A stretch of 33,420 bases of DNA from Alistipes sp. (GTDB lineage Bacteria > Bacteroidota > Bacteroidia > Bacteroidales > Rikenellaceae): NCBI GenBank assembly GCA_017629985.1, contig JAGBWD010000001.1, positions 1-33,420 of the forward strand, written 5' to 3'. The position numbers and the translations under genes were made by a program. The notes beneath the pieces are model-generated. The model did not search any database, was not told the DNA's origin, and saw only the letters and a program-made list of their open reading frames with translations. Positions within the stretch are counted from its first letter, which is position 1; each line of letters starts with the position of its first letter. Shown in pieces: positions 7,050 through 33,181 of the stretch.

Positions 7050-7062
7050 CAGCCGAAATAAG

Positions 7063-7115
7063 ATGTGGAGGGATTTGGACTGATTGCAACCACAATAAAA
7101 AAATGCTAAAGCGGC
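7063..7115 (+). ncRNA. SAM-II riboswitch aptamer upstream of metK
   Basis: Helix P1 is TGTGG (7064-7068) with CCACA (7090-7094). The loop carries the conserved GATTT (7072-7076) and TTGCAA (7084-7089). The tail carries AATAAA and TGCTAAAG (7104-7111), the part that forms the pseudoknot. This order and spacing is the hallmark of the SAM-II (metA motif) class, known from Alphaproteobacteria and Bacteroidetes and found ahead of methionine and SAM genes. Binding of SAM should lower metK expression. The 130 bases between aptamer and ATG hold further possible stems (for example 7192-7209), and AGGAG at 7216-7220 could be the ribosome site that is masked. Confidence 0.85.
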
Positions 7116-7243
7116 ACAACATCTCTGGCGTTGCCTACCTAGCAATCTTTTTAGCGACAGCCAATCCTAGCCATACAATATTTCAACCCATACATAAGTT
7201 ATTATGTAAGGATTAGGAGTATAACTAAAAACATTATAAAATT

Positions 7244-19596: not shown

Positions 19597-21303
19597 TTAA
19601 TCAACGTAGTCCTGCATACCAAAGTCGTGGCCCTCTACACGAGCAACCATCTCGGGTGGCAACTGCTTCTCCACCTCTGGCTCGATAATGGCATTGATGC
19701 CATCTGCCAAGGCCTTGATGGTAGCCATACGGCGGAAGTCAAAGAGCCACACAAAGCACTCCACGCGAAGTGTAAAGATATTATCTGCCTTGATGTAGTG
19801 AGCTATATTCTGCTTGCCTATACCATAATACTCATTCTTATCACAGTTGTAGTCTAGTTCACGCTTCAAGGTCTCGGAAAGATGGTTATAGAGGCGATCA
19901 AAGGTCTCATAATCCGTAATCTTACACTGCGGATCATTATACGAGGCATCCTTCTTCTTCGAGTTATAGCAGAAGTGGAACTGGTGAGGACGTGAACGAG
20001 GTCCTGAAGCTCCGAGGATAGGTATTGCCCAGCTACCAGGACGTGCTGTAAGACGATTCAAATCCTCGAGGAAGAGAGGTAGATTTGTACATATAGGGTT
20101 GTTAGGGATGGTATAATATGACGTAGGGTTGTTAGGATCGGTATCCACCTCCTTGGAGATAAAATTAAAACCACCTATCTTGGCTATATGGTAGGCAAAC
20201 CAGCTGGTGCAAGATTCGATATTTCCCGATGTAAAGACGATTGTAACCTTCGAGCCACGATCTATACAACAGCCATAAGGGGTATTACGCTTGTAGTTAA
20301 ACACCACAATCTTATCAGCAGGGTTATCCTCGGCATTTACAGCATTTGCCATGTTATACAGATGTAGACAGTCTGAAGCCTCCACCGCCTTGGTTATATC
20401 CTCAATAGTGAGGTATTGTCGGGTGATGATGGTATTCAAATCCTTATATCGTGGCACCACAAAGAGCTGTGTAAAGTGCTGGTCCTTCTCAAACTTAAAT
20501 GAGTGTACAATTCTCTGGATATCGTTCTTGAGCTTCTCTGCCTCTGCATCCTCGGCCATGATATCCGAGAATCCCGAGCCTATAAGACCGGCTGGCACGG
20601 CAAAGATAGCGATACCGAGTACACCTATAACGCAGGCTATAAGACGTCCTACGAGGGTGATAGGTGGCGTGTCGGCAAAGTTACCTGGGTCACCGATATA
20701 CTGCGCAAAGGCCCACACCACCGAGGTCCAACCATTGTCGTAAACATCGGGTTGCGCCTCATGCTCCACGAAGAAGAGAATAAACGACAAGATAAGGGTG
20801 ATGATACATAGGAACTGCAACGACACCACTAGCTCCTCCCTCTTGGAGCTAATGGCACGCGACAAGATATTAAAGGCCTTGATATATCTGAAGACACGCA
20901 ATAGACGTGCTATACGCAGAGCCTTCAACGCCACATAAGGAATCTGAATAAAGAAGTTCAGATAGAATGGGTAGGTAGACAATATGTCGATAAGGCCATA
21001 AAACGAGAAGCAGTAGCGTACACGGCCCCAGAAGCCCTTATACTTCTCATCTATCATGTCGGCACACCAGATACGCAACGTAACCTCGATGGTAAAGAGG
21101 AAGGTAGTGGCGTAGTCTACAAAGTGGAGTATGTGGCCATAGCGCTCCACAACAACACTATAGGTAGATGCAAAGACCTCCAACGTTGAGATAATGATAA
21201 GACCAATGATGGCATAATCTACGTAGTTATGCCACTGCTTTGTGTGAAGAGTATCATCGAAAACTCGAGATAACTCATGCTTAAATTTTGAAATACTACT
21301 CAT
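19597..21303 (-). CDS. Voltage-sensor ion channel protein with large C-terminal domain (B)
   Basis: A 568-residue paralogue of the protein at 17145-18848. The voltage sensor, S4 and pore are nearly the same residue for residue (about residues 27-250), including the non-canonical QYIGDPG at the filter position. The DNA in that part is also close to identical. The C-terminal half is clearly related but divergent; shared landmarks are TPYGCCIDRGSKVTI, CTSWFAYHIAKIGGFNFIS, FLEDLNRLT, GSWAIPILG and HQFHFCYNSKKKD. This suggests two channels with one sensor/pore but different cytoplasmic ligand or enzyme domains, possibly forming hetero-oligomers. The ATG overlaps the end of pcp by 8 bases. Confidence 0.85.
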   Translation of the reverse strand: MSSISKFKHELSRVFDDTLHTKQWHNYVDYAIIGLIIISTLEVFASTYSVVVERYGHILHFVDYATTFLFTIEVTLRIWCADMIDEKYKGFWGRVRYCFSFYGLIDILSTYPFYLNFFIQIPYVALKALRIARLLRVFRYIKAFNILSRAISSKREELVVSLQFLCIITLILSFILFFVEHEAQPDVYDNGWTSVVWAFAQYIGDPGNFADTPPITLVGRLIACVIGVLGIAIFAVPAGLIGSGFSDIMAEDAEAEKLKNDIQRIVHSFKFEKDQHFTQLFVVPRYKDLNTIITRQYLTIEDITKAVEASDCLHLYNMANAVNAEDNPADKIVVFNYKRNTPYGCCIDRGSKVTIVFTSGNIESCTSWFAYHIAKIGGFNFISKEVDTDPNNPTSYYTIPNNPICTNLPLFLEDLNRLTARPGSWAIPILGASGPRSRPHQFHFCYNSKKKDASYNDPQCKITDYETFDRLYNHLSETLKRELDYNCDKNEYYGIGKQNIAHYIKADNIFTLRVECFVWLFDFRRMATIKALADGINAIIEPEVEKQLPPEMVARVEGHDFGMQDYVD

Positions 21304-21901
21304 CTTTTGTCACTTCATTTATTATTTTCTCTATAGCCTTGACCATATCGGCCATAGGCATTCTCCTTGCTTCGGAATTGGTTGTAGTCTGCTCTTCGCA
21401 TAGTGGAAGATGGATAAATAGGGCCTGCATAGTACCACATCTGCACATACGTAACGCCTCATAATAGAGTCTGTTACACACGTATACACCTGCCGAGTTA
21501 GATATCTTGGCAGGGATACCCTCATCGACAATCGCGGTATGTAGCCTCTTTATCGGAAGAGTGGTGAAGAGGGCATTGTTCTCACCACTGTAGATAGGCT
21601 CCTCGCTAGGCTTATAATCATCGTTATCCCCCATTGCCGAGTCCATGAGATTCAGCGCCACACGCTCCAACTTCACCCTATCGGTGAGTGTCGACTGCCC
21701 AAGCATAATAACCACATCGGGTGTATATCTCTCTACGGCCTTGCGCAGGCTATGTGCTACACGTGTAAAACTCACAGGGAGCAACTCAACGGCAAGCTCC
21801 AGGCCATCTGCAGAGTAGCAACTAACCCTGCGAGCCACCTCCCATGACACATTCTCGGGATGCCCACCAAAAGGTTCAAAGCCTGTCACAAGCACCCTCA
21901 T
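21296..21901 (-). CDS. pcp: Pyroglutamyl-peptidase I (family C15)
   Basis: It removes N-terminal pyroglutamate from peptides in the cytoplasm. The fold start MRVLVTGFEPFGGHPENVSWEV is diagnostic. The catalytic triad is visible as Glu79 (VKLERVALN), Cys142 (NSAGVYVCN) and His164 (LFIHLP). At 201 residues it is slightly short of the usual 205-220. Its end overlaps the first channel gene by 8 bases and it starts 4 bases after the outer-membrane protein gene, so it belongs to the channel-peptidase operon. Two peptidases in one unit with channels hint at peptide handling. Confidence 0.95.
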   Translation of the reverse strand: MRVLVTGFEPFGGHPENVSWEVARRVSCYSADGLELAVELLPVSFTRVAHSLRKAVERYTPDVVIMLGQSTLTDRVKLERVALNLMDSAMGDNDDYKPSEEPIYSGENNALFTTLPIKRLHTAIVDEGIPAKISNSAGVYVCNRLYYEALRMCRCGTMQALFIHLPLCEEQTTTNSEARRMPMADMVKAIEKIINEVTKDE

Positions 21902-21905
21902 AACT

Positions 21906-22661
21906 CTATCTACGAGGGTTGTTTATCTGCCATGCTACGCCAAAACTTACAGCCCAGCACTGCGCAGGGTTGCAAAGGTCGAGGTTTGCCGCGACATCCA
22001 ACTGCACACGCTCACCAACCATATAGTTAAGGCCAAAATCTACGCCATAGGCGTTGCCATACGCTGCAAAGTTATTGTAGCTCTCGGCAAAGCAGCCAAG
22101 ACGCTCCGAGAGTGAAAAGCCAAAGCATAGCGCCACAAATGTAGAGGGTGCTGGAGAGTATCCATTCCACTCTGCACCTACGTTATAGCCGATGCTCAAC
22201 CAGTCGTTCACAGGGTTCTCAAAGAGCAGGTAGAGTGATGGTGCAAAATGCTCGGTCTCAAAACCATTGCTCGCTGTGCCAGGTATTGCAAAGTCCGCCA
22301 ATACCGAGATGGCAGGTATAGCGCCCTCGCCCTCGAAACACTTTATCTTCGTACCGACACTCAAGCCAGCAAATGCCGCGCTCCACTTGTCGTAGGTGTG
22401 GTGAATAAGGGCATCGCCACCAAGACGTAGCTCCATGCCATCAAACAAGCCATAACGTAGCAGCGTGTTGCTAAAGGTAAACTGACCATAGCCTCCGCCA
22501 TCGCCATCAAACTGCACACCCTGCTCCAACTGTATAACATTACGTGCCACGGTAGCAGGACCTGTAGATGCTCCAGGACGGTCGGCGGTAAACTCCACAT
22601 CTTGGGCCATAACGCCCAGAGTCATAAAAATAGCTACTAGGGCTAAAATACTTCTCTTCAT
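21906..22661 (-). CDS. Predicted outer-membrane beta-barrel protein (Phenol_MetA_deg/transporter-like)
   Basis: A 251-residue protein with a signal peptide (MKRSILALVAIFMTLGVMAQ, probably cleaved after AQ; no lipobox). The mature start FTADRPGASTGPATVARNVIQLEQGVQF is the signature of the family annotated as MetA-pathway of phenol degradation or transporter. It is followed by about twelve amphipathic strands (for example YGQFTFSNTLLRYGLFDGMELRLGGD) and ends in a long strand region. It is probably a small outer-membrane barrel; the cargo is unknown and phenol metabolism is not implied. First gene of the five-gene channel-peptidase operon. A possible -7 box TATCTTTG is at 22715-22708, without a good -33. 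Confidence 0.82.
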   Translation of the reverse strand: MKRSILALVAIFMTLGVMAQDVEFTADRPGASTGPATVARNVIQLEQGVQFDGDGGGYGQFTFSNTLLRYGLFDGMELRLGGDALIHHTYDKWSAAFAGLSVGTKIKCFEGEGAIPAISVLADFAIPGTASNGFETEHFAPSLYLLFENPVNDWLSIGYNVGAEWNGYSPAPSTFVALCFGFSLSERLGCFAESYNNFAAYGNAYGVDFGLNYMVGERVQLDVAANLDLCNPAQCWAVSFGVAWQINNPRR

Positions 22662-22832: not shown

Positions 22833-23075
22833 TTATTTATAACGCGCTATAGACTCCTTGCAGCTCTCAATCTGACGCTTCAGGCTCTCAATCTGACGAT
22901 CGTGATATGCCGCCTTGTCGATCTTCTGCTTGCGATAACTAGCCTTTGATGATGGCGATGACGCACCCTTTATCAACGATGCATAACGCTCATTATCACG
23001 CTTCTTTGCCTCCTTCTCACGCGCCATGTCTGCACGCAAATCTATAATACGCTTCTTGTAATACTCCTTGCTCAT
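22833..23075 (-). CDS. Small basic coiled-coil protein, 80 residues
   Basis: The whole 80-residue sequence is Lys/Arg/Glu-rich and should be helical: YKKRIIDLRADMAREKEAKKRDNERY, a short Ser-rich break (SSPSSKASYRKQ) and a second helix RQIESLKRQIESCKESIARYK with heptad spacing. There is no signal or membrane helix. It is the last gene of the cluster, 24 bases after the KAP-type NTPase, so co-transcription is likely and it may be a partner of the NTPase. I do not recognise a named family. Confidence 0.7.
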   Translation of the reverse strand: MSKEYYKKRIIDLRADMAREKEAKKRDNERYASLIKGASSPSSKASYRKQKIDKAAYHDRQIESLKRQIESCKESIARYK

Positions 23076-23099
23076 ATTACTGTGGTTTTAATGTTATAA

Positions 23100-24893
23100 T
23101 CATACTTGCTCCATAACGGGGTAAATAGCGAGCATAGTATCTGCACACCATTTTACCAAGCTACTGTCTGACCTATCAATTTGGGCTCTCACAATCCAAT
23201 CAATCTTCTTACTAAATTGGTTATGCTCTGCTGTCTTGAGAAGATGGTCAGCAGGTAGTTTTGATATTGCATCATAAATTCGATCCTTCATTTCTTCTAT
23301 GTGGGTTGTAACCATCCAGACCCTTACCTCACTCGCCCTAACGCCATACGTGATACCCAAATCAATCTTACCCTTATTCGCAGTAGATTTCACTACCATA
23401 TAAGGGGCACCGTTTTTAGGGATTGTGACCTTTGCCTTGGGATATGCCTTAAGTATTTCGGCCTTGATAGGCTCCCAAAGTTTGACATCCCAAGGATATT
23501 CAGAGGCCTTGATCTTCTTTGGGGTATCAAATGCCTTGAGGTTGGTCACAGCTGACATCTCAAGTGTTGCCTCCACAATCTCGCCAAGGTTTTCGTCATT
23601 ATTGACGATTGTGGCCATCTTGTTCAGAAGCTTCGACACGTAGAAGGCACGATTACTCAAGAATGTCTCCTTCTGACACATGCGAAATACCACCTTCTCC
23701 CAATCCTCGTCAAACTCCTCGGTAGCATCAAGAGCCTCCTTCTCCAACTCCGTGAGAGGGCGCAACTTGAGCTTTGAGGCTATCGTCTCGTTCCAGCTCT
23801 TGAAATCGGGCTCATCAGCAAGCTGATTGTAGATATATGGGTATGCAATCTGCAAACATACTAACGCATAGTTCAACATCTTGGTGGTATTCTCCAATGA
23901 TGCGCTATCAGCACCAAATTGCTTCTGGTTGATGATCGAGATAAGTGCAAGAGTGTTGGTAAGACGCTTCAAAGAACGAGGGTTGGTACCCACCGAGAAG
24001 CGGGTAATCTCCGAGAGTGTCTCTGCAAGTGCATTATCGGCAAGCTCCTCAGCGCTGAAGAACTCAATCTTACCCAAGGCATCGACAAGGAACGTGTCTA
24101 CGTTATACGATGCCACAGGCATAGAGAATGGCAACTGGATAATCTTGTCGAAGAATGAGCGGAACTCACGCTCGTTGGCATCCGTAAGTTCACCAAATTT
24201 TGGCTTCAAGCCCTTAATAACCACATCGTAGTCGATGGCAAGGACAAAAACACACTTCTCCAAGTCGAAGATGTTCTTCAATAACTCCAAAATCTCGACA
24301 GCCACAGGTGGGTCGATACGGTCAAGGTCGTCGATGTAGAAGGTAAAGCCCTGCTTCGAGGCATTCGTAGCCAACGCCTCCTCTATAAGCTTTGATATCT
24401 CACTCTTGAGCTTAACTATATCCGAAGAGGCGGCGCTATTCTCACCACCTTCGAACAACTCATCAACCAAACCGCCATCGATGCCCACAGCACCTGCAGC
24501 GACCTTTGTTCCCACTGTCGCCATCTTCTTGAAGAGGCCACCAATCTTACGCTTGCTCTCCTCCCAATTCTGCTTGCTGGGGTTTAGCTCACCAATCTGG
24601 TGTATGATACCCTCAAGGATAGAGATTATGGTCTGCTGTGGGGTCTTCATCAGGGAGTAGTGCCACGTATTTATCCAAATTGGATAGTATGGCGCGTTGT
24701 CCATGTCGCAGAGGTTGTAGCGCAACAGGTTCATCAACGATGTTTTACCACTACCCCACTCACCCTGCAAGGCGATGGTTATAGGCGTATCGGTAAGTCT
24801 TATATATTCTACAAGCGCATCCTGGTATATCTGAATACCAAATAGGTCGTCCTGCGTATGTTTACGTGGAACATCAATAATACTCGATTTCAT
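23100..24893 (-). CDS. KAP-family P-loop NTPase
   Basis: A 597-residue NTPase. The Walker A motif GEWGSGKTS is at 44-52 and Walker B FYIDDLDRIDP at 185-195; WINTWHY and the later FVLAIDYDVV (sensor-like) complete the KAP pattern. KAP NTPases are STAND-related ATPases often tied to the membrane and, in some cases (PifA of plasmid F), to phage exclusion. The usual inserted membrane helices are replaced by a short, weakly hydrophobic stretch at about 122-147 (MATVGTKVAAGAVGIDGG). The last 120 residues (KAKVTIPKNGAPYMVVKS onward) are a separate small domain I cannot name. It lies 75 bases after the GIY-YIG gene. Confidence 0.88.
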   Translation of the reverse strand: MKSSIIDVPRKHTQDDLFGIQIYQDALVEYIRLTDTPITIALQGEWGSGKTSLMNLLRYNLCDMDNAPYYPIWINTWHYSLMKTPQQTIISILEGIIHQIGELNPSKQNWEESKRKIGGLFKKMATVGTKVAAGAVGIDGGLVDELFEGGENSAASSDIVKLKSEISKLIEEALATNASKQGFTFYIDDLDRIDPPVAVEILELLKNIFDLEKCVFVLAIDYDVVIKGLKPKFGELTDANEREFRSFFDKIIQLPFSMPVASYNVDTFLVDALGKIEFFSAEELADNALAETLSEITRFSVGTNPRSLKRLTNTLALISIINQKQFGADSASLENTTKMLNYALVCLQIAYPYIYNQLADEPDFKSWNETIASKLKLRPLTELEKEALDATEEFDEDWEKVVFRMCQKETFLSNRAFYVSKLLNKMATIVNNDENLGEIVEATLEMSAVTNLKAFDTPKKIKASEYPWDVKLWEPIKAEILKAYPKAKVTIPKNGAPYMVVKSTANKGKIDLGITYGVRASEVRVWMVTTHIEEMKDRIYDAISKLPADHLLKTAEHNQFSKKIDWIVRAQIDRSDSSLVKWCADTMLAIYPVMEQV

Positions 24894-24968
24894 AAAGTAT
24901 CAATTAGTAGTCTGTTGTTTCTATCTTTATCTATGGTAGCGATGTCTTAATCGGCATCTACCAATTCG

Positions 24969-25733
24969 CTATCTTATGTATCTCACCGCACCGCGCGATG
25001 GAAATGGAAAGGCTGTCACATCCTTGTTAAGGTAGAGGTCATTGCCCTCCTTGTCGTTCGTGACACCCTCGATGTTGTATCTTCGTGATTTTGACGGATG
25101 CCCCTTGACCTCCTTCCACTTCGACGTGGGCTTGATAACCACACGCACTATACCTCGGTATACGCCTAGCACATAGTTCACCTGATCGGCATTTGCCTTG
25201 CTCACGTGCCAATCGCCACGAGTTATCTCGTATAGGTCGGGGCGAACATTTAGGCCATTTGCACTCCGTTGAACATATGACCTATTAAGGTTCACCATAA
25301 GGAGCTTATGCCCCTCCTTCAGTTGCAGAGGCTTGCAATCGTAGAGCTGTATAACCTCATCTGCAGTCTTTATACCCTCATCCCACTGATGATGCCCCGC
25401 CACGATGTTCGTAAGCAGGCTATCGGTATTGAAATCCTCATATGTGAGGAGATCTATAAGTACCGACTCTACCGTGAAGGCATCCTCCTCGGAGAGTTTG
25501 TGACGAATGATATAGTGCCTAACCTTGTAGCCAGCGTCAATAATCTCCCTAATCTTCTCGATCTTATCCGTAGTGGCCTCTTCATCCTCCAAGGCGTTAC
25601 AGGCGTGGGCATACACCCTATCGCCACAGCCCTTGCCTATATAGAAGATTTTGCTGTCACGAGGATCTACCAAGCAGTAGACATAATAACCTAACTCCTC
25701 CTTAACCTTTTGTGAAAATTGAGGTAGCTCCAT
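24969..25733 (-). CDS. GIY-YIG nuclease-like protein (LEM-3-like branch)
   Basis: The frame opens at 25784, but the Met at 25733 (MELPQFSQKVKEELG) fits the domain better; 254 residues. The N-terminal domain is a GIY-YIG variant: YYVYCLVDPRD for GIY, FYIGKGCGDRVYAHACNA for YIG with the conserved Arg, and the later Glu in AFTVESVLIDLL. The YIGKG...RVYAH pattern resembles the LEM-3-like GIY-YIG group. The C-terminal part (NLNRSYVQRS, YEITRGDWHVSKANADQVNYVLGVYRGIVRVV) looks like a small beta domain, perhaps PUA-like or a nucleic-acid reader. Probably a DNA endonuclease acting with the NTPase next door; target unknown. Confidence 0.82.
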   Translation of the reverse strand: MELPQFSQKVKEELGYYVYCLVDPRDSKIFYIGKGCGDRVYAHACNALEDEEATTDKIEKIREIIDAGYKVRHYIIRHKLSEEDAFTVESVLIDLLTYEDFNTDSLLTNIVAGHHQWDEGIKTADEVIQLYDCKPLQLKEGHKLLMVNLNRSYVQRSANGLNVRPDLYEITRGDWHVSKANADQVNYVLGVYRGIVRVVIKPTSKWKEVKGHPSKSRRYNIEGVTNDKEGNDLYLNKDVTAFPFPSRGAVRYIR

Positions 25734-25810
25734 ATCAAGAGTATTTAAACATTTAGATACACACCATCCAGCGGCAATAGCCACACGTCATTACCACCGC
25801 AAATTTATGA

Positions 25811-25915
25811 TTACTTCTTCTTTTTGCCGAAAAGGGTCTTTAGGATGGTTCCACCAATCTTACGTTAGTTTTTAGGGTTTTGATTAGTGATATGTGAGGT
25901 AATCATGCCCCACAT
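25811..25915 (-). pseudogene. Possible broken 34-codon ORF in the gap before the GIY-YIG gene
   Basis: In one minus-strand frame the gap reads ATG (25915), 16 codons, a TAA stop (25867-25865), then a further open stretch in the same frame encoding RKIGGTILKTLFGKKKK and a stop at 25811. The last part looks like a real protein C terminus, with a small amphipathic helix and a Lys tail. One nonsense change could have split a small gene, or this may be the remnant of a longer deleted gene. With so few codons, chance cannot be excluded. Confidence 0.3.
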
Positions 25916-25921
25916 ACCCTA

Positions 25922-26725
25922 TTATTGGTTGGCCTGGACAAGCTCAATATACGAGAATCCCATGGCCTTGAAGAATAGCTCTAAACGCTCCTTACCACTC
26001 TCATCAGCCTTCTCGAGAATGCCAGACTCCAACGAACTTGCCTTCAATGCCTCGCGATAGTTCGATTGAAGAGCCGAAATCTCCTCGTGACTCCACTCAC
26101 CCTCCTCGATATACATCTCGTAGTCGGACGGGTTAGCAATAACATCGAAGATCTCTGGGTTAGGCAATACGATAGAGATTGAATCGCCACCAACTTTAAT
26201 TTGGTCGGCTGCAACCTTGCTCAAGTCGTAACCCGCACGAACACGGCCCTTTGCCAAGATAACTACCTCGCTATATACCGAGTCGGCCTCGATATTTGCC
26301 AAACGCATCAAACTGTTCTGCTTACCAGCTTCAACCTTATCATTATGAAGCACCGCCTCCTCATAGTAGCACGCTGTGGTAAACTCCGAAATCTTGCGAA
26401 TCTTCTCAACTACGTTAGCTGTCTTATCGATAGTAGGCTCCTTTGTGATATACTTATGCAATGCGATACCACCTCCTGTCAAAGCGCCAATACCAAAGAG
26501 CGATGCGATGACTGGCAGTAAATAGGAACCAAACATACTACCTGCGATTGCTGTTGTTGCAGTGCCCGCAGCTCCCTTAACGGTCTCGCTTACAACATCC
26601 TTGACAACCTCTGTGGCAATATCCTTGACTCCACTCCCCTTCTCGGTCTTAACAATATTGTCGGTGGACTCGTTCTTGGAACGGCCAAACAACTTTTTAA
26701 TAGTCTTAAATATACCCTTTTCCAT
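25922..26725 (-). CDS. DUF4230-type membrane protein
   Basis: A 267-residue protein. A basic N terminus (IFKTIKKLFGRSKN) and a helical stretch precede a Gly/Ala-rich hydrophobic region (about 56-90, ATTAIAGSMFGSYLLPVIASLFGIG) that should insert in the membrane. The rest resembles DUF4230 proteins: KISEFTTACYYEEAVLHND, VYSEVVILAKGRVRAGYDLSKV, SIVLPNPEIFDVIANPSDYEMY, and a helical end FFKAMGFSYIELV. It pairs with the DUF4230-like lipoprotein gene just upstream (11 bases). The role of DUF4230 is unknown; two different membrane anchors suggest a complex at the envelope. Confidence 0.78.
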   Translation of the reverse strand: MEKGIFKTIKKLFGRSKNESTDNIVKTEKGSGVKDIATEVVKDVVSETVKGAAGTATTAIAGSMFGSYLLPVIASLFGIGALTGGGIALHKYITKEPTIDKTANVVEKIRKISEFTTACYYEEAVLHNDKVEAGKQNSLMRLANIEADSVYSEVVILAKGRVRAGYDLSKVAADQIKVGGDSISIVLPNPEIFDVIANPSDYEMYIEEGEWSHEEISALQSNYREALKASSLESGILEKADESGKERLELFFKAMGFSYIELVQANQ

Positions 26726-26736
26726 AACTCAGCCTC

Positions 26737-27291
26737 CTATTCTTCGTTAAACACTACATTAATCTTCTCGAAGCCTACTTGTGATAGCAATGCCTCAAAA
26801 AACATTCGCGCATTATTCTCTGCATCTTCCAAGATTCCCAAATTTGGGGCATCAGCCAAGATATCCTCCTCGCCCTGACGCAACAAATTGTTACGATCCT
26901 CGGCAGTGAAGTCGAAGCGCAATGCGCCTACCTTCTCATACTCCAACTTTGCCTTCTCGGGTGGCATATTAAACGACAAAACTCTTGGTTTTGGGAGGTT
27001 GATAGTGATCTCCTTATCTTTGATTTTGACCTGATCTACCGAGAAATTAGTCATATCGACACCAGCCTTCATTGTAGCGCTACACGAGAAGAGAATCTTA
27101 CGGTCACCAATGGTGTAGAACTTTGAATCAGAGGCTTTGATAATCTTTGAGATAGTATACTCCACAGTGCCTATCTCCGCCATCTCGGTCATTGTTGAGA
27201 ACTTCTCTTTTGCTCTATCCTCGAGCGACTTGCCACATCCCGTAAATAGGATAGCAGAGGCAACGAGCAAAGTAAGTATATTTTTCCTCAT
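26737..27291 (-). CDS. DUF4230-type lipoprotein
   Basis: The signal MRKNILTLLVASAILFTGC gives a lipidated Cys19. The mature 165 residues follow the DUF4230 pattern: EMAEIGTVEYTISKIIKAS, IGDRKILFSCSATMKAGVDMTNF, ITINLPKPRVLSFNMPPEK, and a C-terminal helix plus FEALLSQVGFEKINVVF. The core order (conserved T/VEY, GDRKIL, AGVD, NLPxP) is shared with the membrane paralogue at 25922-26725, which lacks a lipobox. It is likely tethered to the membrane facing the periplasm. A stem-loop (27325-27350) separates it from the small module gene upstream. Biochemical function unknown. Confidence 0.82.
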   Translation of the reverse strand: MRKNILTLLVASAILFTGCGKSLEDRAKEKFSTMTEMAEIGTVEYTISKIIKASDSKFYTIGDRKILFSCSATMKAGVDMTNFSVDQVKIKDKEITINLPKPRVLSFNMPPEKAKLEYEKVGALRFDFTAEDRNNLLRQGEEDILADAPNLGILEDAENNARMFFEALLSQVGFEKINVVFNEE

Positions 27292-27324
27292 ATCACATTT
27301 AATTAATTATCAATACATTAGAGA

Positions 27325-27350
27325 CATAGGAGGGTATCAATCCTCCTATG
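27325..27350 (-). terminator. Intercistronic stem-loop in the cluster
   Basis: CATAGGAGG (27325-27333) pairs with CCTCCTATG (27342-27350), 9 bp, 8-base loop, 21 bases past the stop of the gene at 27371. There is no real T run, so partial termination or 3' end protection is as likely as full termination. Confidence 0.5.
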
Positions 27351-27370
27351 CCAGAATTTGGTGCAAGCAA

Positions 27371-27688
27371 TTACTCGCGACCTGCAGCAGCCAAAGTGAT
27401 ATCGTTGTTTGAAAGAGCAGTGTCATCAGGATTTGCTACCTGAACACCGATACCATACAACTCAGCGATCTTCTTCTCGAAGTTACCAACCTTGAGGTTG
27501 CCACCTACAACGAGCTCGCCGCCCTTCTTACCCTCGCCACGGATAGAAGCGAGTGTAGCGTCGTCGTCAGCGAAACCGCCCTTGCAGCTCTCGCTCTTGT
27601 AAACACGCAATGTAGCGCCAAAGCACTCCTTAAAGTTTGCCTTCAATGTCTTGACCTTCATACGGCCATCCAACTTAAATTCTGCCAT
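27371..27688 (-). CDS. Free-standing copy of the duplicated small module, 105 residues
   Basis: The whole protein is close to residues 1-105 of the OmpA-domain protein at 29665-30963. It has two similar halves: GRMKVKTLKANFKECFGATLRVYKS, then DDATLASIRG; and GGNLKVGNFEKKIAELYGIGVQVAN, then NNDITLAAAG. Each half reads as strand, helix, strand and a xDxTL turn, which I read as a possible beta-grasp (ubiquitin-like) unit; this is inference. There is no signal or membrane helix, so it is cytoplasmic. It ends AAGRE without a Gly-Gly tail. It could compete with or bind the cytoplasmic end of the OmpA protein. Confidence 0.8.
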   Translation of the reverse strand: MAEFKLDGRMKVKTLKANFKECFGATLRVYKSESCKGGFADDDATLASIRGEGKKGGELVVGGNLKVGNFEKKIAELYGIGVQVANPDDTALSNNDITLAAAGRE

Positions 27689-27727
27689 AATTGTTTAATG
27701 TTTAAATGGTTAATAAATATGTGTAAT

Positions 27728-28150
27728 TTAGAAAATAACGCCCTTTGAAATCTCTGCTATCTCCTGTGCTGTAACTTTAGTACATCCATTCTCCTTTGCC
27801 CAGTTGTTAGCTTGAGTCAAAGACTTTGAGTTAAACTCTCCAATAGGGAAATAGTGCTTGTGGCCAGAATAATTGCAAACACCAATCTGGCAAGCTATAC
27901 CAAGCTGCTCCCAGAAGTAATTCTCAATATTCTTAACCATAGTACGACCATGGATAGATATCTCCTCGTTAGAGAACTTCTTTCTTGTCTCTGCCAATGA
28001 TTTCGATGTGTCAATACCCTTTACGCTACAAGATTTCGCTCTATCTGCATCAATGATAAAGCACAATGTGAGATACTCAAACTTCTCCGAGAACTCTCTT
28101 TGGAGAGTTGACATCTTCTTACGGCCATGAACACTAATTTCGTTTGCCAT
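27728..28150 (-). CDS. Divergent member of the duplicated-module family, 140 residues
   Basis: Two related halves are visible: EISVHGRKKMSTLQREFSEKFEYLTLCFI (about 4-32) and EISIHGRTMVKNIENYFWEQLGIACQIG (about 63-90), each a strand, helix, strand as in the 105-residue protein at 27371-27688. It differs by having a longer linker (DADRAKSCSVKGIDTSKSLAETRKKF) and an added C-terminal helical stretch FNSKSLTQANNWAKENGCTKVTAQEIAEI. No export signal. It lies 39 bases before that gene and 44 after the OGG-like gene. The within-protein repeat is seen directly; function unknown. Confidence 0.75.
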   Translation of the reverse strand: MANEISVHGRKKMSTLQREFSEKFEYLTLCFIIDADRAKSCSVKGIDTSKSLAETRKKFSNEEISIHGRTMVKNIENYFWEQLGIACQIGVCNYSGHKHYFPIGEFNSKSLTQANNWAKENGCTKVTAQEIAEISKGVIF

Positions 28151-28194
28151 AATTGTTTAGTTTTAAGTGATTAAGTTAGTTATTATTATGTTTG

Positions 28195-28878
28195 TTAGTC
28201 AATTTTCACCTCTGCTATACTTTTCTTATCGAGTTTTGCCAAACGCTCTATCTCAAAATCTTCGCCTGCCACCTTAAACGCACCCCAAATGTAGGCATCT
28301 ACCTCACGCACCGAAAACTCTGTCAAATCGAACAGCTCCATAAAGTATTTGTAGAGGTCCACAAAGAAGTCGTACTCCTTAAGTTTGGCTGCAAACTCAC
28401 CCTTCGTAAAGGTATTCGGCGATTTACTCTTTGTGCGGCTATAGGTATATTTAGGGAGGTATCCCTGCATAAAAAGGCTCTCAAAAGTATCCGCCACAAT
28501 GCTATCATAGATAGGATACTTTGTTGGCTGATGCAGAGCGCAATACTTTGTCGCAAACGAATAGTTAAAGCGTACATCGCCATTGGATAGTTTGAGCGTT
28601 GCAATCTCCGCTACCAACGACTTATCTCCAGCTTTGAGACGTGCATCTATATCCTTTATAGAGAGGATGTGCGCTGTCATCATATTGGTTGCTTGGATTC
28701 CTGTCGAGTAGAACAAGTTTAGAAGCTTGACCTTTGTATCCACAGCGCCAGCGTTTTTATGGTCAGGATACTCCTCTACCAAACGTTGCAAAATATCCTC
28801 CTGGATGCTATATGATGGTAACTTGTCATAGGCTGCCAACGCACGTTCTGCATCCGATTTTAGCGATACCCTCTTCAT
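28195..28878 (-). CDS. Protein resembling the OGG-fold DNA glycosylase-like family
   Basis: A 227-residue, mostly helical soluble protein. Two stretches recall proteins annotated as 8-oxoguanine glycosylase OGG fold: FATKYCALHQPTKYPIYDS (108-126), where relatives have a similar Lys-Phe/Tyr, His, Pro, Pro-Ile-Asp pattern, and FSVREVDAYIWGAF (188-201), where relatives have Arg-x-x-Asp-x-x-x-Trp. The classic HhH hairpin and catalytic Lys of true OGG1 are not obvious, so glycosylase activity is doubtful. It may bind DNA or nucleotides. It sits inside the module-gene cluster behind a 9-bp stem-loop. The family reading is tentative. Confidence 0.6.
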   Translation of the reverse strand: MKRVSLKSDAERALAAYDKLPSYSIQEDILQRLVEEYPDHKNAGAVDTKVKLLNLFYSTGIQATNMMTAHILSIKDIDARLKAGDKSLVAEIATLKLSNGDVRFNYSFATKYCALHQPTKYPIYDSIVADTFESLFMQGYLPKYTYSRTKSKSPNTFTKGEFAAKLKEYDFFVDLYKYFMELFDLTEFSVREVDAYIWGAFKVAGEDFEIERLAKLDKKSIAEVKID

Positions 28879-28904
28879 TTTTCAGTTTTAGCTAATTCTC
28901 GTAC

Positions 28905-28930
28905 CTCGGGGTGCGGTCAAACACCCCGAG
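28905..28930 (-). other. Intercistronic stem-loop, 9 bp
   Basis: CTCGGGGTG (28905-28913) pairs with CACCCCGAG (28922-28930) around an 8-base loop, between the 89-residue gene and the OGG-like gene. It is GC-rich, has no T run, and is built like the stem-loop at 27325-27350, so mRNA processing or stability is a likely role. Confidence 0.55.
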
Positions 28931-28967
28931 ATTATTATTTATTGTCGCTTGATAACCATTGTTGTCA

Positions 28968-29237
28968 CTAATATCTCTCAATGGTTTCATCGCAATAAAA
29001 TCCATATACACTTACTCCACGTGGGACCCTTATGGTTACATGGTCGTCAGAATTGCCATTGTGGTCATAACTGCAGCTACACAATTTGTATTGCTTACCG
29101 TCTTCGCGCCACACTTTGGGAAATTCTATCACTCTTGCTACAGGATCGTAACTTCCGGGGCGATATTCAATACGAACAGTCATATCGTGGCTATATAATG
29201 ATGTATATACGCCATCCGTTTTAGGTGTAACTTTCAT
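28968..29237 (-). CDS. Unrecognised 89-residue protein
   Basis: A small protein without signal or membrane helix, rich in Tyr, Asp, Ser and Val, probably all beta: MTVRIEYRPGSY, ARVIEFPKVW, KQYKLCSCSYDHNG, DHVTIRVPRGVSVYGFYCDE. A CxC pair and a third Cys near the end could matter for metal binding or disulphides, but the evidence is thin. It lies between the module genes at 29276-29638 and the OGG-like gene, same strand, 38 bases from the former, so it is probably part of the same transcript. No family is recognised. Confidence 0.65.
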   Translation of the reverse strand: MKVTPKTDGVYTSLYSHDMTVRIEYRPGSYDPVARVIEFPKVWREDGKQYKLCSCSYDHNGNSDDHVTIRVPRGVSVYGFYCDETIERY

Positions 29238-29275
29238 AATACAAATAATTTAAATTAGTGAATATAAATCGGTTT

Positions 29276-29638
29276 CTAATACTCACCGCGGGCTGCCTGA
29301 CCAATGGTTATCTCGTTAGGAACGAGCTTCTTGCCCTCTGCATCCTTAATCTGAACGGTTACGCCGAACTGCTCATCGAAGAGCTTCTCAGCATCACCAA
29401 CCTTCATACTTGCCTTAATCTTGAGGCCATCAGCCTTGACGTTTACCGTCTTGGCAGTCTTGGTGTTGAGTGCCGCAAGGGTCATATCACCATCAGCAAT
29501 CTTTGCACCCTTGTAGAATACAAGCGTAAGCCCAAAAGCCTCCTTAAACTCCGCAGAGATAGTTTTTAGCTTCTTCTGTGGAGCAACGGTAAACTCCGCA
29601 TTCTTGAATCTATCCATTATATTATTCAAAATTCCCAT
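29276..29638 (-). CDS. Member of the duplicated-module family, 120 residues
   Basis: After a short lead (MGILNNIMDRFKNAEF) come two related halves: APQKKLKTISAEFKEAFGLTLVFYKGAKIADGDMTLAALN and ADGLKIKASMKVGDAEKLFDEQFGVTVQIKD, then EGKKLVPNEITIGQA. The first half, with its VFYKGAKIADGDMTL ending, recalls the second part of ubiquitin (strand, loop, acidic turn, TL); this is the best single piece of sequence for the beta-grasp idea, but it stays an inference. No export signal. It starts 26 bases after the OmpA-domain gene at 29665, so the two are surely co-transcribed. Confidence 0.78.
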   Translation of the reverse strand: MGILNNIMDRFKNAEFTVAPQKKLKTISAEFKEAFGLTLVFYKGAKIADGDMTLAALNTKTAKTVNVKADGLKIKASMKVGDAEKLFDEQFGVTVQIKDAEGKKLVPNEITIGQAARGEY

Positions 29639-29664
29639 AATATATTATATGTATTAAATGTTTA

Positions 29665-30963
29665 TTACTCAACAATGATAAACTCTGTACGACGGTTAGC
29701 CTCTGGGGTATTCTCATCGATAGGCTCTGAAGAGCCCTTACCCTCTGCCTCTAAACGCTCTGCAGCGATGCCACGACCTACGAGGAAGTCTACAGCAGCC
29801 TGTGCGCGTGCCTCCGACAACTTCTGGTTGAACGCTGGGTCACCCTCCGATGATGTGTGGCCAACGAGCTTGAGGCGCAACTCTGGGTGCTTCTCCATAA
29901 GCTGTGCGAGGTCGTGCAACACAAACTTTGCCTCCTCCGACAAGTCGGCCTTACCCACGATAAACTTCGCAGCGTTGAAGTTCTTCTCAATCTCCTCAAC
30001 ACGGTCTACGTATACAATCTTCTCTACCTCGACAATCTTCTCTACCTCCTTCTCGATAACCGTAGGTTTAGTAATTGCATCGTAGAACACCTGAAGAGTG
30101 CCGATTACAAACATCGCGATAAGTAGCCATACCCACCACTTGAGCTTCTTCTTGCCAGGTACTGGAGGTACGTAGCCATTGAGGTACTCAAGGCGGAAGC
30201 CACCCTTCTTTGCACCGCCATCAGCCTTCTCGAAGTCGGCGATGAGGATACCATACTGCTTTGCGTGGGCTGCTATGTTCTCAAAATCAGGCTTTGTCCA
30301 CATCATAGCAAACTGCACCTTTGTACCATCGCCCATAGTAAGCAACTCATCGGGCTGCGTGAAGTAACATCCGAACTTGCCGTTATCAGCATCGCCCTTA
30401 TATTCAGTAAAGATTTCGCGTGCTGGATTCAAGCTATTAGGGAACGCCTGACGTAAATCCTCCAACTTGGCGTGTGGATACATCACCATATAAGCATGAG
30501 CAATACCGAGTGCTGTACGATTCTGCGCCTTGCCATAAACTCGCACACGTGCGCTTGCAAGCTCCGCAGCAGTCGCCTCAACATTTGGGGCAGTCTCGGT
30601 TGCAGTTGGTGTTACGATGTTATGGCCATGACCACTCTCTGCCGAAGCGGTTGATGCTGCACCCATGAGCGTTGCAGCGTCATCAGCAAATTCTGTATCA
30701 TCGGCATTTGCCACCTGAACACCGATACCATACAACTCGGCAACTCTGCGCTCAAAGGTAGCAACCTTCATATTACCCTTCACCGTAAACTCGCCACCCG
30801 AGTAACCCTCGGCGCGGATTGATGCGAGCGTTGCATCATCAGAAGCCTGCTCACCCTCACACTTAATATTGGTGTAGACGCGAAGTGTAGAACCAAAGTT
30901 CTTCTTAAACTCATCTTTTAAGGTCTTCACCTTTACTCGACCATCTAATGTAAAATCTGCCAT
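29665..30963 (-). CDS. Membrane protein joining the duplicated small module to a C-terminal OmpA domain
   Basis: 432 residues in five parts. Residues 1-103 are the same two-unit module as the protein at 27371-27688. Residues 104-135 are a low-complexity linker. Residues about 137-262 form a soluble domain I cannot name (RTALGIAHAYMVMYPHAKLEDLRQAFP, FTQPDELLTMGDGTKVQFAMMW). Residues 276-295 are one membrane helix (WWVWLLIAMFVIGTLQVF), followed by a Glu/Lys/Val coiled segment (300-328). Residues about 332-432 are an OmpA/MotB-type peptidoglycan-binding domain (LVGHTSSEGDPAFNQKLSEARA, GKGSSEPI, NRRTEFII). With no signal peptide, the N terminus should be cytoplasmic and the OmpA end periplasmic, bridging membrane and wall. 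Confidence 0.88.
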   Translation of the reverse strand: MADFTLDGRVKVKTLKDEFKKNFGSTLRVYTNIKCEGEQASDDATLASIRAEGYSGGEFTVKGNMKVATFERRVAELYGIGVQVANADDTEFADDAATLMGAASTASAESGHGHNIVTPTATETAPNVEATAAELASARVRVYGKAQNRTALGIAHAYMVMYPHAKLEDLRQAFPNSLNPAREIFTEYKGDADNGKFGCYFTQPDELLTMGDGTKVQFAMMWTKPDFENIAAHAKQYGILIADFEKADGGAKKGGFRLEYLNGYVPPVPGKKKLKWWVWLLIAMFVIGTLQVFYDAITKPTVIEKEVEKIVEVEKIVYVDRVEEIEKNFNAAKFIVGKADLSEEAKFVLHDLAQLMEKHPELRLKLVGHTSSEGDPAFNQKLSEARAQAAVDFLVGRGIAAERLEAEGKGSSEPIDENTPEANRRTEFIIVE

Positions 30964-31028
30964 ATTCTATTTATCTAAGTTATAAGTTGCTTGTTATACA
31001 AAACCATCCAACGCTTCAGTAGGCACAA

Positions 31029-31062
31029 AAAAAAAGCGCAGACTAATTACTTAATCTCCGCT
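31029..31062 (-). terminator. Strong terminator between the 58-codon ORF and the OmpA-domain gene
   Basis: On the minus strand AGCGGAGATTAA pairs with TTAGTCTGCGCT (one G-G mismatch, one T-G pair) around a GTAA tetraloop and runs directly into nine T. It overlaps the stop codon of the ORF at 31051-31227 and lies about 65 bases before the OmpA-gene start. It could be a simple terminator or an attenuator for the operon. Confidence 0.8.
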
Positions 31063-31227
31063 GATAGGCCCTAGGATAGCCTGTGGTAAGAAAAAAAAGT
31101 AATAGCCTACGCCATGTCGGCATACCACACAATATGGCACGCTAACACAGGCAGCATTATCCTCTCTTACCAAAATGAATTTCCTAGGTTCATCAGCGAG
31201 AAGATAAACACTGTTTGTGCTTATCAT
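31051..31227 (-). CDS. Small ORF, 58 residues, in the leader of the OmpA-module operon
   Basis: The ATG at 31227 lies 14 bases after a perfect -7 box, so the leader would be only about 8 bases. The 58-residue product starts MISTNSVYLLADEPRKFILV, has PYCVVCRHG (a CxxC) in the middle, an aromatic run GYYFFFLPQAILG and ends PISGD. The stop lies inside a strong terminator stem. It could be a genuine small protein made from a short transcript, or a leader whose translation decides whether RNA polymerase reads on into the OmpA operon. It is too short for composition tests and no homologue is recognised. Confidence 0.5.
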   Translation of the reverse strand: MISTNSVYLLADEPRKFILVREDNAACVSVPYCVVCRHGVGYYFFFLPQAILGPISGD

Positions 31228-31241
31228 AATATTTTATATTA

Positions 31242-31272
31242 CAAATATATATAAAAAAATTCAAAGCACAAA
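31242..31272 (-). promoter_or_regulatory. Promoter for the 58-codon ORF and possibly the OmpA-module operon
   Basis: TTTG (31272-31269), 19 bases, TATATTTG (31249-31242) on the minus strand; an exact consensus match between the kinase 3' end and the small ORF. Confidence 0.75.
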
Positions 31273-31366
31273 TCCACCCCACAATTTTTTAACAATTAAG
31301 GGCGTAGACTATTTACAACACAAAGGTATGAAATTAGAGCAAATCTCTCAACAGGCTTACTTGTCT

Positions 31367-32557
31367 TTACTTGTCTTTTACATTGCCTTTATACGGCACA
31401 TAGGGCAACTCATTAACAATCAACGAGTCCAGATACTTACGTTCCTCACCCTTTACCTCAATATAGAAACATGGATACGTAGACAAATGCTCTGCAAGGC
31501 TCTCGAAATAGCGTTTATAGAGTTCTTCATAATGAGCATACAACAACGACTGCAGATAGGTATCATCGGTCATTGCCAAATACTTACGTTGCACAGCATC
31601 GCACTGCTCCCACATGGAGCGTAGGTGACGCGAGGCAAACTCCATATATGGGACATTATACACCGAGTCGGTAAGAGCATTACAAATATCTGCAATCTCC
31701 CTCTCCATACCCGTCAGCATCCTATCACGAGCATTGTCACTCTGGCGAGCTACACTCCACGAGTAGAGATAGAGGGACATAGGTGCTATGACAACAAGTA
31801 TAAAGAAGATATTTCGCAAAATCCTCCAGCCGCGGTGTCTATTTTTCCAGGCATGACGCAGGGCCTCGACATTGGCATAACGACACTCGGGGTTCTCCGC
31901 AGTGCATCGGCGCACGATGGCAGACTCCCCAAGTAACTCGCCCATAATGACACCTATGGAGTATATATCGCTACGGGCATCGACAGCACCTCTAGAACGC
32001 AGCTCGGGAGAGGCATAGCGTGGCGTACACCCCAGCATCTTGAACATAGCCTCGGCATCGCTATCTGCCAATCCAAAATCTGCCAATTTCAGTCTATTAT
32101 CGGAATATGTAACAAGGATATTTTCGGGCTTGAGGTCGTTATGTATAACACCGCGCTTATGGAGATATTCGACAGCCGACATCAGCTCCTCGAATATACG
32201 TTTACGCTCATCGCCCGAGGGGCGCTCCGCAAGGTACTCCGCAAGGGTGCGACACTCCAAATACTCCATGACAATAGCTGGGCCAACAGGGAGCTTTGTA
32301 TCATATATAAATGTATGAACAATATGCGGGTGATCACAGCCAATGGAGAGTTCATACTCGCGATAGAGGAGCTTCTGCTGATACTCGGAGTTGTCTTTTG
32401 TTGTCTTTAACAAGAAGTACTTTCCCTGGCGCGTGGCGCGATATAGTTTGGCATTAGAGGTGGTTTTCAGCAACTTAAGGTCACAATATTCCTCATCAAC
32501 AATTATGTTCGGGGTGTCACAATCGAAGATTTCGCTTTCGGTAGTCATATTCTGCAT
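31367..32557 (-). CDS. Membrane Ser/Thr protein kinase with extracytoplasmic domain
   Basis: A 396-residue Hanks-type kinase. The domain runs over about residues 25-240: Lys51 (YFLLKTT) for ATP, Glu in YREYEL (67-69) on helix C, hinge AIVMEYLECRTL, catalytic loop VIHNDLKPEN (137-146, Asp141, HND so a non-RD kinase), LADFGLAD (158-165) and PRYASPEL (179-186) for the activation segment, SDIYSIGVIMGELL in helix F. The Gly-rich loop is poor (LLKTTSNAKLYRA has no GxGxxG), yet the other catalytic residues are intact. Residues 249-267 are a membrane helix and about 130 residues follow outside, without PASTA repeats. It heads the envelope cluster and probably senses a periplasmic signal. Met4 is an alternative start. 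Confidence 0.92.
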   Translation of the reverse strand: MQNMTTESEIFDCDTPNIIVDEEYCDLKLLKTTSNAKLYRATRQGKYFLLKTTKDNSEYQQKLLYREYELSIGCDHPHIVHTFIYDTKLPVGPAIVMEYLECRTLAEYLAERPSGDERKRIFEELMSAVEYLHKRGVIHNDLKPENILVTYSDNRLKLADFGLADSDAEAMFKMLGCTPRYASPELRSRGAVDARSDIYSIGVIMGELLGESAIVRRCTAENPECRYANVEALRHAWKNRHRGWRILRNIFFILVVIAPMSLYLYSWSVARQSDNARDRMLTGMEREIADICNALTDSVYNVPYMEFASRHLRSMWEQCDAVQRKYLAMTDDTYLQSLLYAHYEELYKRYFESLAEHLSTYPCFYIEVKGEERKYLDSLIVNELPYVPYKGNVKDK

Positions 32558-32593: not shown

Positions 32594-33181
32594 ATGAACA
32601 TTCAAAGTAATATTCCTGAAATAGCCGTTCTACGTGAGCGCGTAGAGGCACGACTAGGCAAGCGTCTTACGGTACACTCCGACTTTCTAGAACTAGTCTC
32701 AATTATCGAGATGGAGCAACGACAGCACATCTCCGAGACAACAATCGAGCGTGTGTGGGGATACTCTACCCGCGGCTATAGCACCGTATCACTACGAACA
32801 TTAAACGTCTTGGCAACATACGCCACAGGAGAGCAGTGGCTAGAATTCTGCCAGCATATATATAATAACAGCGACTACGAATCGCAGCTCTTCAACATCG
32901 AGAGGATTGCCACATGCGACCTCGAGGTAGAGGACCGAATAGAGATAGGATGGATGCCCAACAGAAGATGTATAGTGCGCTATGTTGGCAACGGGAAGTT
33001 TATTGCCGAGGAGTGTCACAACTCCAAGATGCAGCCTGGCGATAGCTTCGAATGTAGAGAATTTGCCATAGGCAAGGAGCTAAAGATGAGCAAATACTCA
33101 ACCATAGACCAAGGCAGCAGCACTAGCCAGACATACGTGGTGGGAATAAAAAATGGACTTACGATACTAAAGATACTATAA
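32594..33181 (+). CDS. Predicted DNA-binding regulator, divergent from the kinase cluster
   Basis: A 195-residue protein of a type common in Bacteroidales. The first 90 residues are helical (VLRERVEARLGKRLTVHSDFLELVSIIEM, HISETTIERVWGYSTRGYSTVSLRTLNVLATYATG), with a helix-turn-helix-like segment around ISETTIERVWGYS and SLRTLNVLATY. The C-terminal half (DLEVEDRIEIGWMPNRRCIVRYVGNGKFIAEE, LQPGD-like MQPGDSFECREF, TYVVGIKNGLTILKIL) is a small beta domain. Its start is 36 bp from the kinase start, so it may control the cluster. DNA binding is inferred from pattern and position only. Confidence 0.75.
   Translation: MNIQSNIPEIAVLRERVEARLGKRLTVHSDFLELVSIIEMEQRQHISETTIERVWGYSTRGYSTVSLRTLNVLATYATGEQWLEFCQHIYNNSDYESQLFNIERIATCDLEVEDRIEIGWMPNRRCIVRYVGNGKFIAEECHNSKMQPGDSFECREFAIGKELKMSKYSTIDQGSSTSQTYVVGIKNGLTILKIL

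Follow-up and report, generated by a model that had tools for sequence, protein, structure and literature searches.

Two described systems resemble parts of the locus studied here. Zorya joins an OmpA/MotB-type wall anchor that has a cytoplasmic part to nuclease partners. The GIY-YIG enzyme CMoRE, also catalogued as PD-T4-3, degrades DNA carrying 5-hydroxymethylcytosine (5hmC) or its glucosylated form (5ghmC) and is marked by a third tyrosine (GIYxY-YIG), as set out in the accessible part of its report (PMC12923530). The DNA analysed here, a 33,420-nucleotide stretch from Alistipes sp. (contig JAGBWD010000001.1, positions 1 to 33,420; hereafter the window), encodes a CMoRE homologue and an OmpA protein within a run of minus-strand genes that also includes a membrane Ser/Thr kinase, a KAP P-loop NTPase, small proteins sharing a domain that we call the module, and an 80-residue hallmark protein, cc80 (Table 1). 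We read the region as an example of a modular Bacteroidales antiviral island, in which a conserved layer and the module proteins would serve swappable effectors and a channel, and we put the probability of this reading at about 0.47.

The gene set recurs. Across 393 Bacteroidales genomes (the order sample, the window's own genome included), cc80 is present in 15, and a query made of the module and the mid domain that follows it in the OmpA protein has matches in 26. A module or mid-domain match lies 0.1-4.3 kb from cc80 in 14 of the 15 cc80 genomes, window included, the exception being genome G319; the window is itself the 4.3-kb case, and with it set aside 13 of 14 remain, none more than 3.3 kb apart. 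Among the matches listed, 11 genomes have a full-length extended channel, in ten of them within 6.4 kb of cc80 (G172 is the exception), and the remaining listed channel matches cover the transmembrane (TM) part only, save for a C-terminal fragment in G325. A first-pass annotation of the window had proposed that its genes form one system whose homologues would be neighbours in other genomes, and they are; the cluster is not a set of chance neighbours.

A second sample, anchored on cc80, yields the same picture. A pattern scan of a species-genome collection returned 152 stretches encoding cc80 relatives, of which the best 80 were kept and 79 tallied after removal of L144, a near copy of L145. 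By record title the relatives belong to Bacteroidales or to a family or genus of the order (five are labelled only Bacteroidia or Bacteroidetes), and ruminant and other gut samples supplied many of them. We define families as sequence clusters or hidden Markov model matches, with domain scans on one or two members each; gene calling was mechanical and picked cc80 itself in 71 of 79 loci, flanks of 7.5 kb or more on each side are available in 40 of 79 only, and the loci are not independent, since some are congeners and at least nine come from the same records as loci of the G-numbered genomes (for example L082/L056, L105/L023 and L106/L073). Per 79 loci, the module is found in 65, the channel TM part in 55, a structured leader RNA in 40, the kinase in 36, the divergent regulator in 34, the mid domain in 33, the C15 peptidase in 30, F7 in 24, F8 in 22, the PF13557 family in 20, F10 (AAA_14-DUF4143) in 19, KAP in 18, F11 in 16, an OGG-named family in 14, F22 (PvuRts1I-like) and F21 (PDDEXK_4) in 10 each, F17 in 9, DUF4230 in 8, F25 (GIY_YIG_2) in 7 and the CMoRE type in 6. 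The module, cc80, channel, kinase, regulator and mid/OmpA protein are the most recurrent parts, and KAP, the CMoRE-type GIY-YIG protein and DUF4230 look like cargo because only a minority of islands carries each (18, 6 and 8, respectively). Of the one-system proposal, the recurrent adjacency stands and the fixed membership falls. All module (124), channel (72), C15 (30) and KAP (18) genes lie on the cc80 strand, and among the families tallied only the regulator (21-/15+), kinase (33+/3-) and F10 (13+/11-) occur on both strands. What recurs is a mostly co-oriented set of regulator, kinase, leader RNA, mid/TM/OmpA anchor, module, cc80, C15 peptidase and channel. Exchangeable genes are interspersed among these conserved genes and also flank them, and several are related to anti-phage nucleases and NTPases. 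Neighbourhood clustering also found shared genes outside the borders first drawn, 22833-32557, namely the Ion_trans channel, the C15 peptidase, a PF13557 protein and the divergent regulator; these borders were too narrow, as the recurring set reaches down to 17145 and takes in the regulator. The channels, C15 peptidase, regulator and leader RNA had all been overlooked.

Two congeners, G213 and G367, carry an island block of about 7.9 kb at 90.6% identity within different flanks. In G367 the sequences that flank the G213 island are separated by about 425 kb, which shows relocation or rearrangement rather than a clean insertion. Over 77-83% of its length, the window KAP protein shares 74% identity with the KAP protein of G065 and 71% with that of G298, compared with 69% and 67% for MetK, and conservation on a par with MetK hints at transfer. 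The window proteins other than KAP are less conserved, the kinase for instance being 46% identical to that of congener G015. A short dispersed repeat beside the island (L059, about 2685-2886) is found at no fewer than about 40 places in G367.

Most of the gene descriptions in the first-pass annotation were borne out. Its same-strand run with short gaps consists of minus-strand open reading frames (ORFs) separated by 11-139 nucleotides (nt), and 12 of its 13 genes hold, although the 89-residue ORF does so on one relative (L083; tblastn 4e-21, 52% identity), the sole one among the loci searched. The thirteenth, a 58-codon ORF, is rejected as a gene because stops or frameshifts interrupt it in L081, L082, L083, L117, L123 and L144, while about 260 nt of DNA are conserved among relatives and a covarying RNA overlaps it. 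The membrane kinase carries HNDLKPEN and DFG motifs and a hydrophobic segment at 244-270, and the OmpA protein has, as described, an N-terminal module and a hydrophobic segment at 274-298. The three small module paralogues (starting at 27371, 27728 and 29276) are real; the 105-residue protein is 61% identical to the N-terminus of the OmpA protein, and the 120- and 140-residue proteins are more distant (40% and 27%). The module is a tandem duplication of a unit of about 45 residues (hhalign of the halves, Prob 97.7, E 1.3e-12). Against Pfam, PADLOC, NCBIfam and PHROGs, no stand-alone module protein scores below E 0.0045; PDB profile searches for the module, mid domain and cc80 yielded little, the OmpA part alone giving clear matches in one (best 60 of 66) and the best E being 0.049 in another. 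Among all ORFs searched there are 4 module-mid-OmpA and 44 mid-OmpA proteins, and module fusions also involve BspA-type leucine-rich repeats (L119), the OGG-named domain (three proteins) and, by eye, TPR-like parts (L095).

Of the remaining proteins, the predicted coiled-coil protein proved to be a charged, helical-looking 80-residue ORF, and this cc80 is the most conserved piece examined. The two DUF4230 proteins are indeed differently anchored, one being lipoprotein-like by eye (26737..27291, reading LFTGC, which the strict lipobox pattern does not match) and the other having internal hydrophobic segments. For the 227-residue protein, the label 'OGG-like' appears to lack backing from Pfam and PDB: neither the window protein nor its L120 relative has a Pfam match, and a 7-row profile gave no PDB match. 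The regulator has no Pfam match better than 0.08, and its best PDB profile match is ThsA at E 0.4. In sister islands, F7 and F20 are lipoprotein-like by eye and F11 is TerB-like (one member scanned). Very small basic proteins, F12 (54 residues) and F19 (49 residues), occur in 16 and 10 of the 79 islands, F19 usually just before the TerB-like gene.

The exchangeable genes lend support to an antiviral role. The window GIY-YIG protein, correctly recognised at the outset as nuclease-like, matches crystallised CMoRE (PDB 9u75) at 7.8e-29 over residues 17-229 of 271 and has the third tyrosine (GYYVYCLVDPRDSKIFYIG; motif GYYVY..YIG); it is predicted to cut 5hmC-modified phage DNA. The KAP protein has Walker A and B motifs and PADLOC matches to PifA (2.1e-33) and PDC-S20 (2.3e-31). 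Immediately upstream of cc80, sister islands may have a gene for a PvuRts1I-like protein (L089) or a GIY_YIG_2 protein (L073), members of F22 and F25, families that sit directly upstream of cc80 at medians of -0.9 and -0.6 kb. The F22 member in L089 combines PvuRts1I_N and SRA domains (PADLOC mREase_II, 1.1e-75). Seven short islands (L131, L136, L148, L149, L151, L153 and L157) consist of the RNA, a PvuRts1I-like gene, cc80 and a module protein of 291-292 residues, whose C-terminus in L149, the one short island scanned, matches PADLOC PDC-S26. The four supported nuclease families (PvuRts1I-like with SRA and PDDEXK_4 in 10 loci each, GIY_YIG_2 in 7, CMoRE-type in 6) place at least one nuclease in 29 of 79 loci, or in 38 if F17 is counted, which is nuclease-like by eye only and has no Pfam or PADLOC match in the member(s) scanned. 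Other cargo matches the PADLOC candidates PDC-S26 (weakly, 1.5e-9), PDC-S01 (7e-62) and PDC-M09A (3e-31); F10, found in 19 of 79 islands, is the PDC-S01-type cargo. The initial idea of a defence function was thus right in direction, supported as it is by these exchangeable anti-phage relatives, and a defence role is likely; the candidate output genes vary between islands. Stretches that match positions 156-240 of the model for the island GIY-YIG family, its C-terminal half, at E about 1e-25 also occur in proteins that have no GIY-YIG domain (L095:7697-9211, L130:3793-5295 and L155:1237-2481), followed by LRR-like or other parts. They are expected to coincide in part with the sensing domain at the C-terminus of CMoRE, a domain reported to have no homologues (PMC12923530).

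The recurring set also includes the channel and the C15 peptidase. A 50-row channel profile matches KCNQ3 in the PDB at 2.5e-26, and the Ion_trans domain (PF00520) retains S4 arginines (LRIARLLRVFR). The canonical filter of K+ channels is of the TVGYGD type; both window copies instead read AQYIGDPG. GDPG is also present in ten of the 11 other copies aligned, the eleventh (L023) having GDIG. The two channel copies flank a peptidase-like gene. The C15 peptidase matches PDB 1aug at 2.9e-33, with E, C and H motif stretches present.

The leader RNA may be the most novel part of the island. It starts just downstream of the promoter match at 31272-31242, ends in a hairpin and T-run, and folds far better than shuffled sequence (z -5.8 and -6.6). 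A MAFFT alignment of 14 copies (the window and 13 from other loci) has double-sided changes in 8 of 26 pairs, and 53 model-fitted rows have them in 21 of 21 predicted pairs. For the named structure, model-fitted rows have double changes in 30 of 30 pairs and 98-99% pairing in P1-P3; the covariation score reaches 0.753, whereas shuffles give 0.214 and sliding gives 0.147 or less. When 24 copies were aligned by MAFFT alone, with no fit to the model, P1 and P2 again emerged, with double changes in 13 of 15 pairs. Alignment A8 was fitted to the model structure and includes the opposite-strand matches L195 and L100, whereas A6 (folded after removal of one row, the second L141 copy) and A10 are MAFFT alignments with no such fit. 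A pseudoknot is proposed, its candidate pairs being 65% paired in model-fitted rows. With a threshold of E up to 0.1, the covariance model has matches in 75 of the 393 genomes of the order, often several copies each. Of 296 genomes sampled across the phylum, the window's own alone has a match, and at least two others in that sample belong to the same order. Ten or eleven of the 40 RNA-bearing sister islands contributed to the model, and L087, with an opposite-strand match only, is uncounted. We call the RNA undescribed because Rfam 15 gives no gathering-level match over it (the best sub-threshold hit, E 0.12, is a microRNA family) and no description was found in the literature searched.

Elsewhere the RNA also stands before genes. 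A same-strand ORF of at least 60 residues starts within 250 nt downstream in 33 of 40 copies, counted by eye in copies that are mostly top-scoring order matches and not a random sample. The downstream tallies cover 58 of 61 proteins (one each of L213, L223 and L231 omitted) and the first 25 families; these genes are mixed, many encoding lipoprotein-like or surface proteins by eye, and they include PvuRts1I-like, GmrSD, TdeIII, a DNA methylase and two UDG-superfamily proteins, one of the latter behind the RNA in a locus with cc80. GmrSD cuts DNA with glucosylated hydroxymethylcytosine, according to the accessible part of its description (PMC4619093). In L200 (G319:C6), from the window's own family, cc80 stands behind the leader RNA, a 561-residue protein and a UDG-like protein, with no module match.

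Table 1. Positions of the island and its neighbouring features in the window
Feature	Position	Strand	Evidence or occurrence
Divergent regulator-like protein, 195 aa, family F4/c5	32594..33181	+	in 34/79 islands
Membrane Ser/Thr kinase	31367..32557	-	Pkinase 1.5e-34; in 36/79 islands
Bacteroidales-type promoter match TTTG-N19-TATATTTG	31242..31272	-	motif scan
Structured leader RNA, P1-P2-P3 rod and proposed pseudoknot	31037..31209	-	folding z, covariation, model matches
Hairpin and T-run after leader RNA	about 31062-31027	-	not on terminator-scan list
False 58-codon ORF, overlaps leader RNA	31051-31227	-	not a gene
Module, mid domain, TM and OmpA, 432 aa	29665..30963	-	OmpA 2.8e-18
Module protein, 120 aa	29276..29638	-	module paralogue
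89-aa ORF, rare	28968..29237	-	single relative (L083)
227-aa protein, no assigned family, earlier named 'OGG-like'	28195..28878	-	relatives in 14/79 islands
Module protein, 140 aa	27728..28150	-	module paralogue
Module protein, 105 aa, internal tandem duplication	27371..27688	-	hhalign of halves
DUF4230 protein, lipoprotein-like by eye	26737..27291	-	PF14014 1.1e-32; hydrophobic 5-23
DUF4230 protein, internal hydrophobic segments 59-90	25922..26725	-	PF14014 1.3e-27
CMoRE/PD-T4-3 homologue (GIY-YIG)	24969..25784	-	PADLOC PD-T4-3 5.3e-44
KAP P-loop NTPase	23100..24893	-	PF07693 1.3e-33
cc80, hallmark 80-aa protein	22833..23075	-	84% mean column identity over 12 rows
PF13557 protein, hydrophobic N-terminus	21906..22661	-	8.7e-14; family in 20/79 islands
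C15 pyroglutamyl peptidase	21296..21901	-	PF01470 1.8e-46; in 30/79 islands
Kv/KCNQ-like channel, ~300-aa C-terminal domain with no assigned family	19597..21303	-	PF00520 2.4e-18
Peptidase-like protein, M20/M42-like by eye	18858..19589	-	no Pfam match; in 6/79 islands
Second channel copy	17145..18848	-	PF00520 1.6e-18; PDB KCNQ3 1.1e-17

The promoter-type motif has 12 matches in the window against 0.47 expected in shuffles, and promoter-like sites are also present inside the gene region. Outside the island, two identical 31-nt promoter-type sequences lie on the minus strand at 1486-1516 and 2696-2726, and a SAM-II riboswitch lies upstream of metK at 7059-7119.

From this arrangement we infer a signalling path for the proposed antiviral island. 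The kinase and the OmpA protein would together make up an envelope-anchored layer for sensing infection or envelope damage, and the duplicated module domains would act as cytoplasmic docking pieces, with cc80 belonging to the docking set. The signal would then license or recruit the resident nuclease (in the window, the CMoRE homologue) and the KAP NTPase, the channel and peptidases may form a membrane or last-resort arm, and the leader RNA might set operon expression, perhaps through attenuation. The relay suggested in the first-pass annotation, by phosphorylation or by exchange of modules, is likewise conjectural. A more specific version, in which an immune platform of wall-anchored kinase/OmpA, module and cc80 licenses exchangeable nucleases under a leader RNA acting as attenuator or orphan riboswitch of a scattered regulon that includes restriction and DNA-damage genes (PvuRts1I-like, GmrSD, TdeIII, UDG), seems to us unlikely as a whole.

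Several observations weigh against a modular antiviral island. We know of no pyroglutamyl peptidase or Kv-like channel among known defence parts, the PADLOC scan having covered ten window proteins, with the regulator, channels and peptidases outside it. No cc80 relatives were found in a viral collection (pattern scan) or in plasmids (tblastn), and the genes that follow the leader RNA at its other sites are for the most part not defence-like. No supported nuclease family is seen in 50 of 79 islands, where cut contigs and mechanical calls hide genes, and the nuclease families give no sign of mutual exclusion beyond chance, sharing 4 loci where their counts lead one to expect about 5. In addition, the nuclease need not use the other island genes, because CMoRE acts as a single component according to the accessible part of its report (PMC12923530).

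This last point leads to the alternative that fares best, in which module, cc80, kinase, OmpA and channel form one system, and CMoRE, the PvuRts1I-like enzymes and KAP are stand-alone defence genes, passengers that share a hot spot, an operon and a leader RNA. We hold this to be possible, if on balance rather doubtful. It gains from the single-component action of CMoRE, from the minority occurrence of every cargo family and from the presence of the RNA before unrelated genes elsewhere, and it accounts poorly for the position of F22 and F25 directly upstream of cc80, for the seven short loci in which nuclease, cc80 and module are kept together, and for the orientation of the tallied nuclease and KAP genes, all of which lie on the cc80 strand. 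It is a good deal less probable that the locus serves osmotic or membrane stress through its kinase, OmpA protein, lipoproteins, channel and peptidases, the nucleases being incidental. The sporadic distribution (15 of 393 genomes), the congeners with different flanks and the repeated matches to anti-phage families all argue against such an envelope or ion-stress locus, even though OmpA, DUF4230, PF13557, channel and TerB-like parts, the lipoprotein-like F7 and F20 and the many lipoprotein-like genes behind the RNA would suit it. Chance adjacency, to which gaps of up to 139 nt, promoter-like sites within the region and varying cargo might be ascribed, is rejected on the recurrence, across genomes and islands, of cc80 with module/mid, of cc80 with the channel and of the island gene set, and we give it next to no weight.

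If the antiviral reading is true, a type of antiviral system would be added across Bacteroidales gut and rumen genomes, together with three protein pieces that have no Pfam match here (module, mid domain and cc80) and an unusual Kv-like channel, and its natural swaps would reveal which parts are core and which are cargo. The leader RNA, which is multicopy, strongly covarying and matched by no Rfam 15 family, is a concrete orphan class whose downstream genes are known.

Set against known systems, the individual effectors of the island are familiar, and the combination, the module, mid-domain and cc80 families and the RNA are not found in the libraries and literature searched; no description of the gene combination was found in that literature. 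The kinase resembles MADS MAD6 and PD-T4-6 kinases in its kinase domain (2.3e-38), and membership of MADS is rejected, the MAD6 score being 84.7 bits against a cutoff of 460. The KAP domain and Walker motifs are shared with PifA, QatA and PDC-S20, and membership of Qat is rejected at 82.7 bits for QatA against an NCBIfam cutoff of 600, Qat partners not having been searched for. Like the FopS/GibS small RNAs of Bacteroides, the leader RNA is multicopy in Bacteroidales; FopS, in the accessible part of its description, is a single-stranded 5' stretch with a terminator hairpin (PMC11697453), whereas the leader RNA is a long covarying rod, and identity with FopS/GibS is rejected on this ground. The channels share Ion_trans and S4 arginines with Kv-type channels and differ in the filter. 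As in Zorya, the window OmpA protein is a wall anchor with a cytoplasmic part; unlike Zorya, there is no ZorA match in the ten window proteins scanned, a set without the regulator, channels and peptidases, and ZorB matches weakly through OmpA (4.5e-6), so that Zorya membership is rejected. PvuRts1I-like enzymes are matched in domain composition by the F22 member of L089; they are absent from the window itself and in sister islands stand beside cc80 and the module. With CMoRE/PD-T4-3 the window protein shares homology over the GIY-YIG domain and most of the C-terminal part; CMoRE works alone, whereas the window gene stands amid kinase, OmpA, module, cc80 and channel genes.

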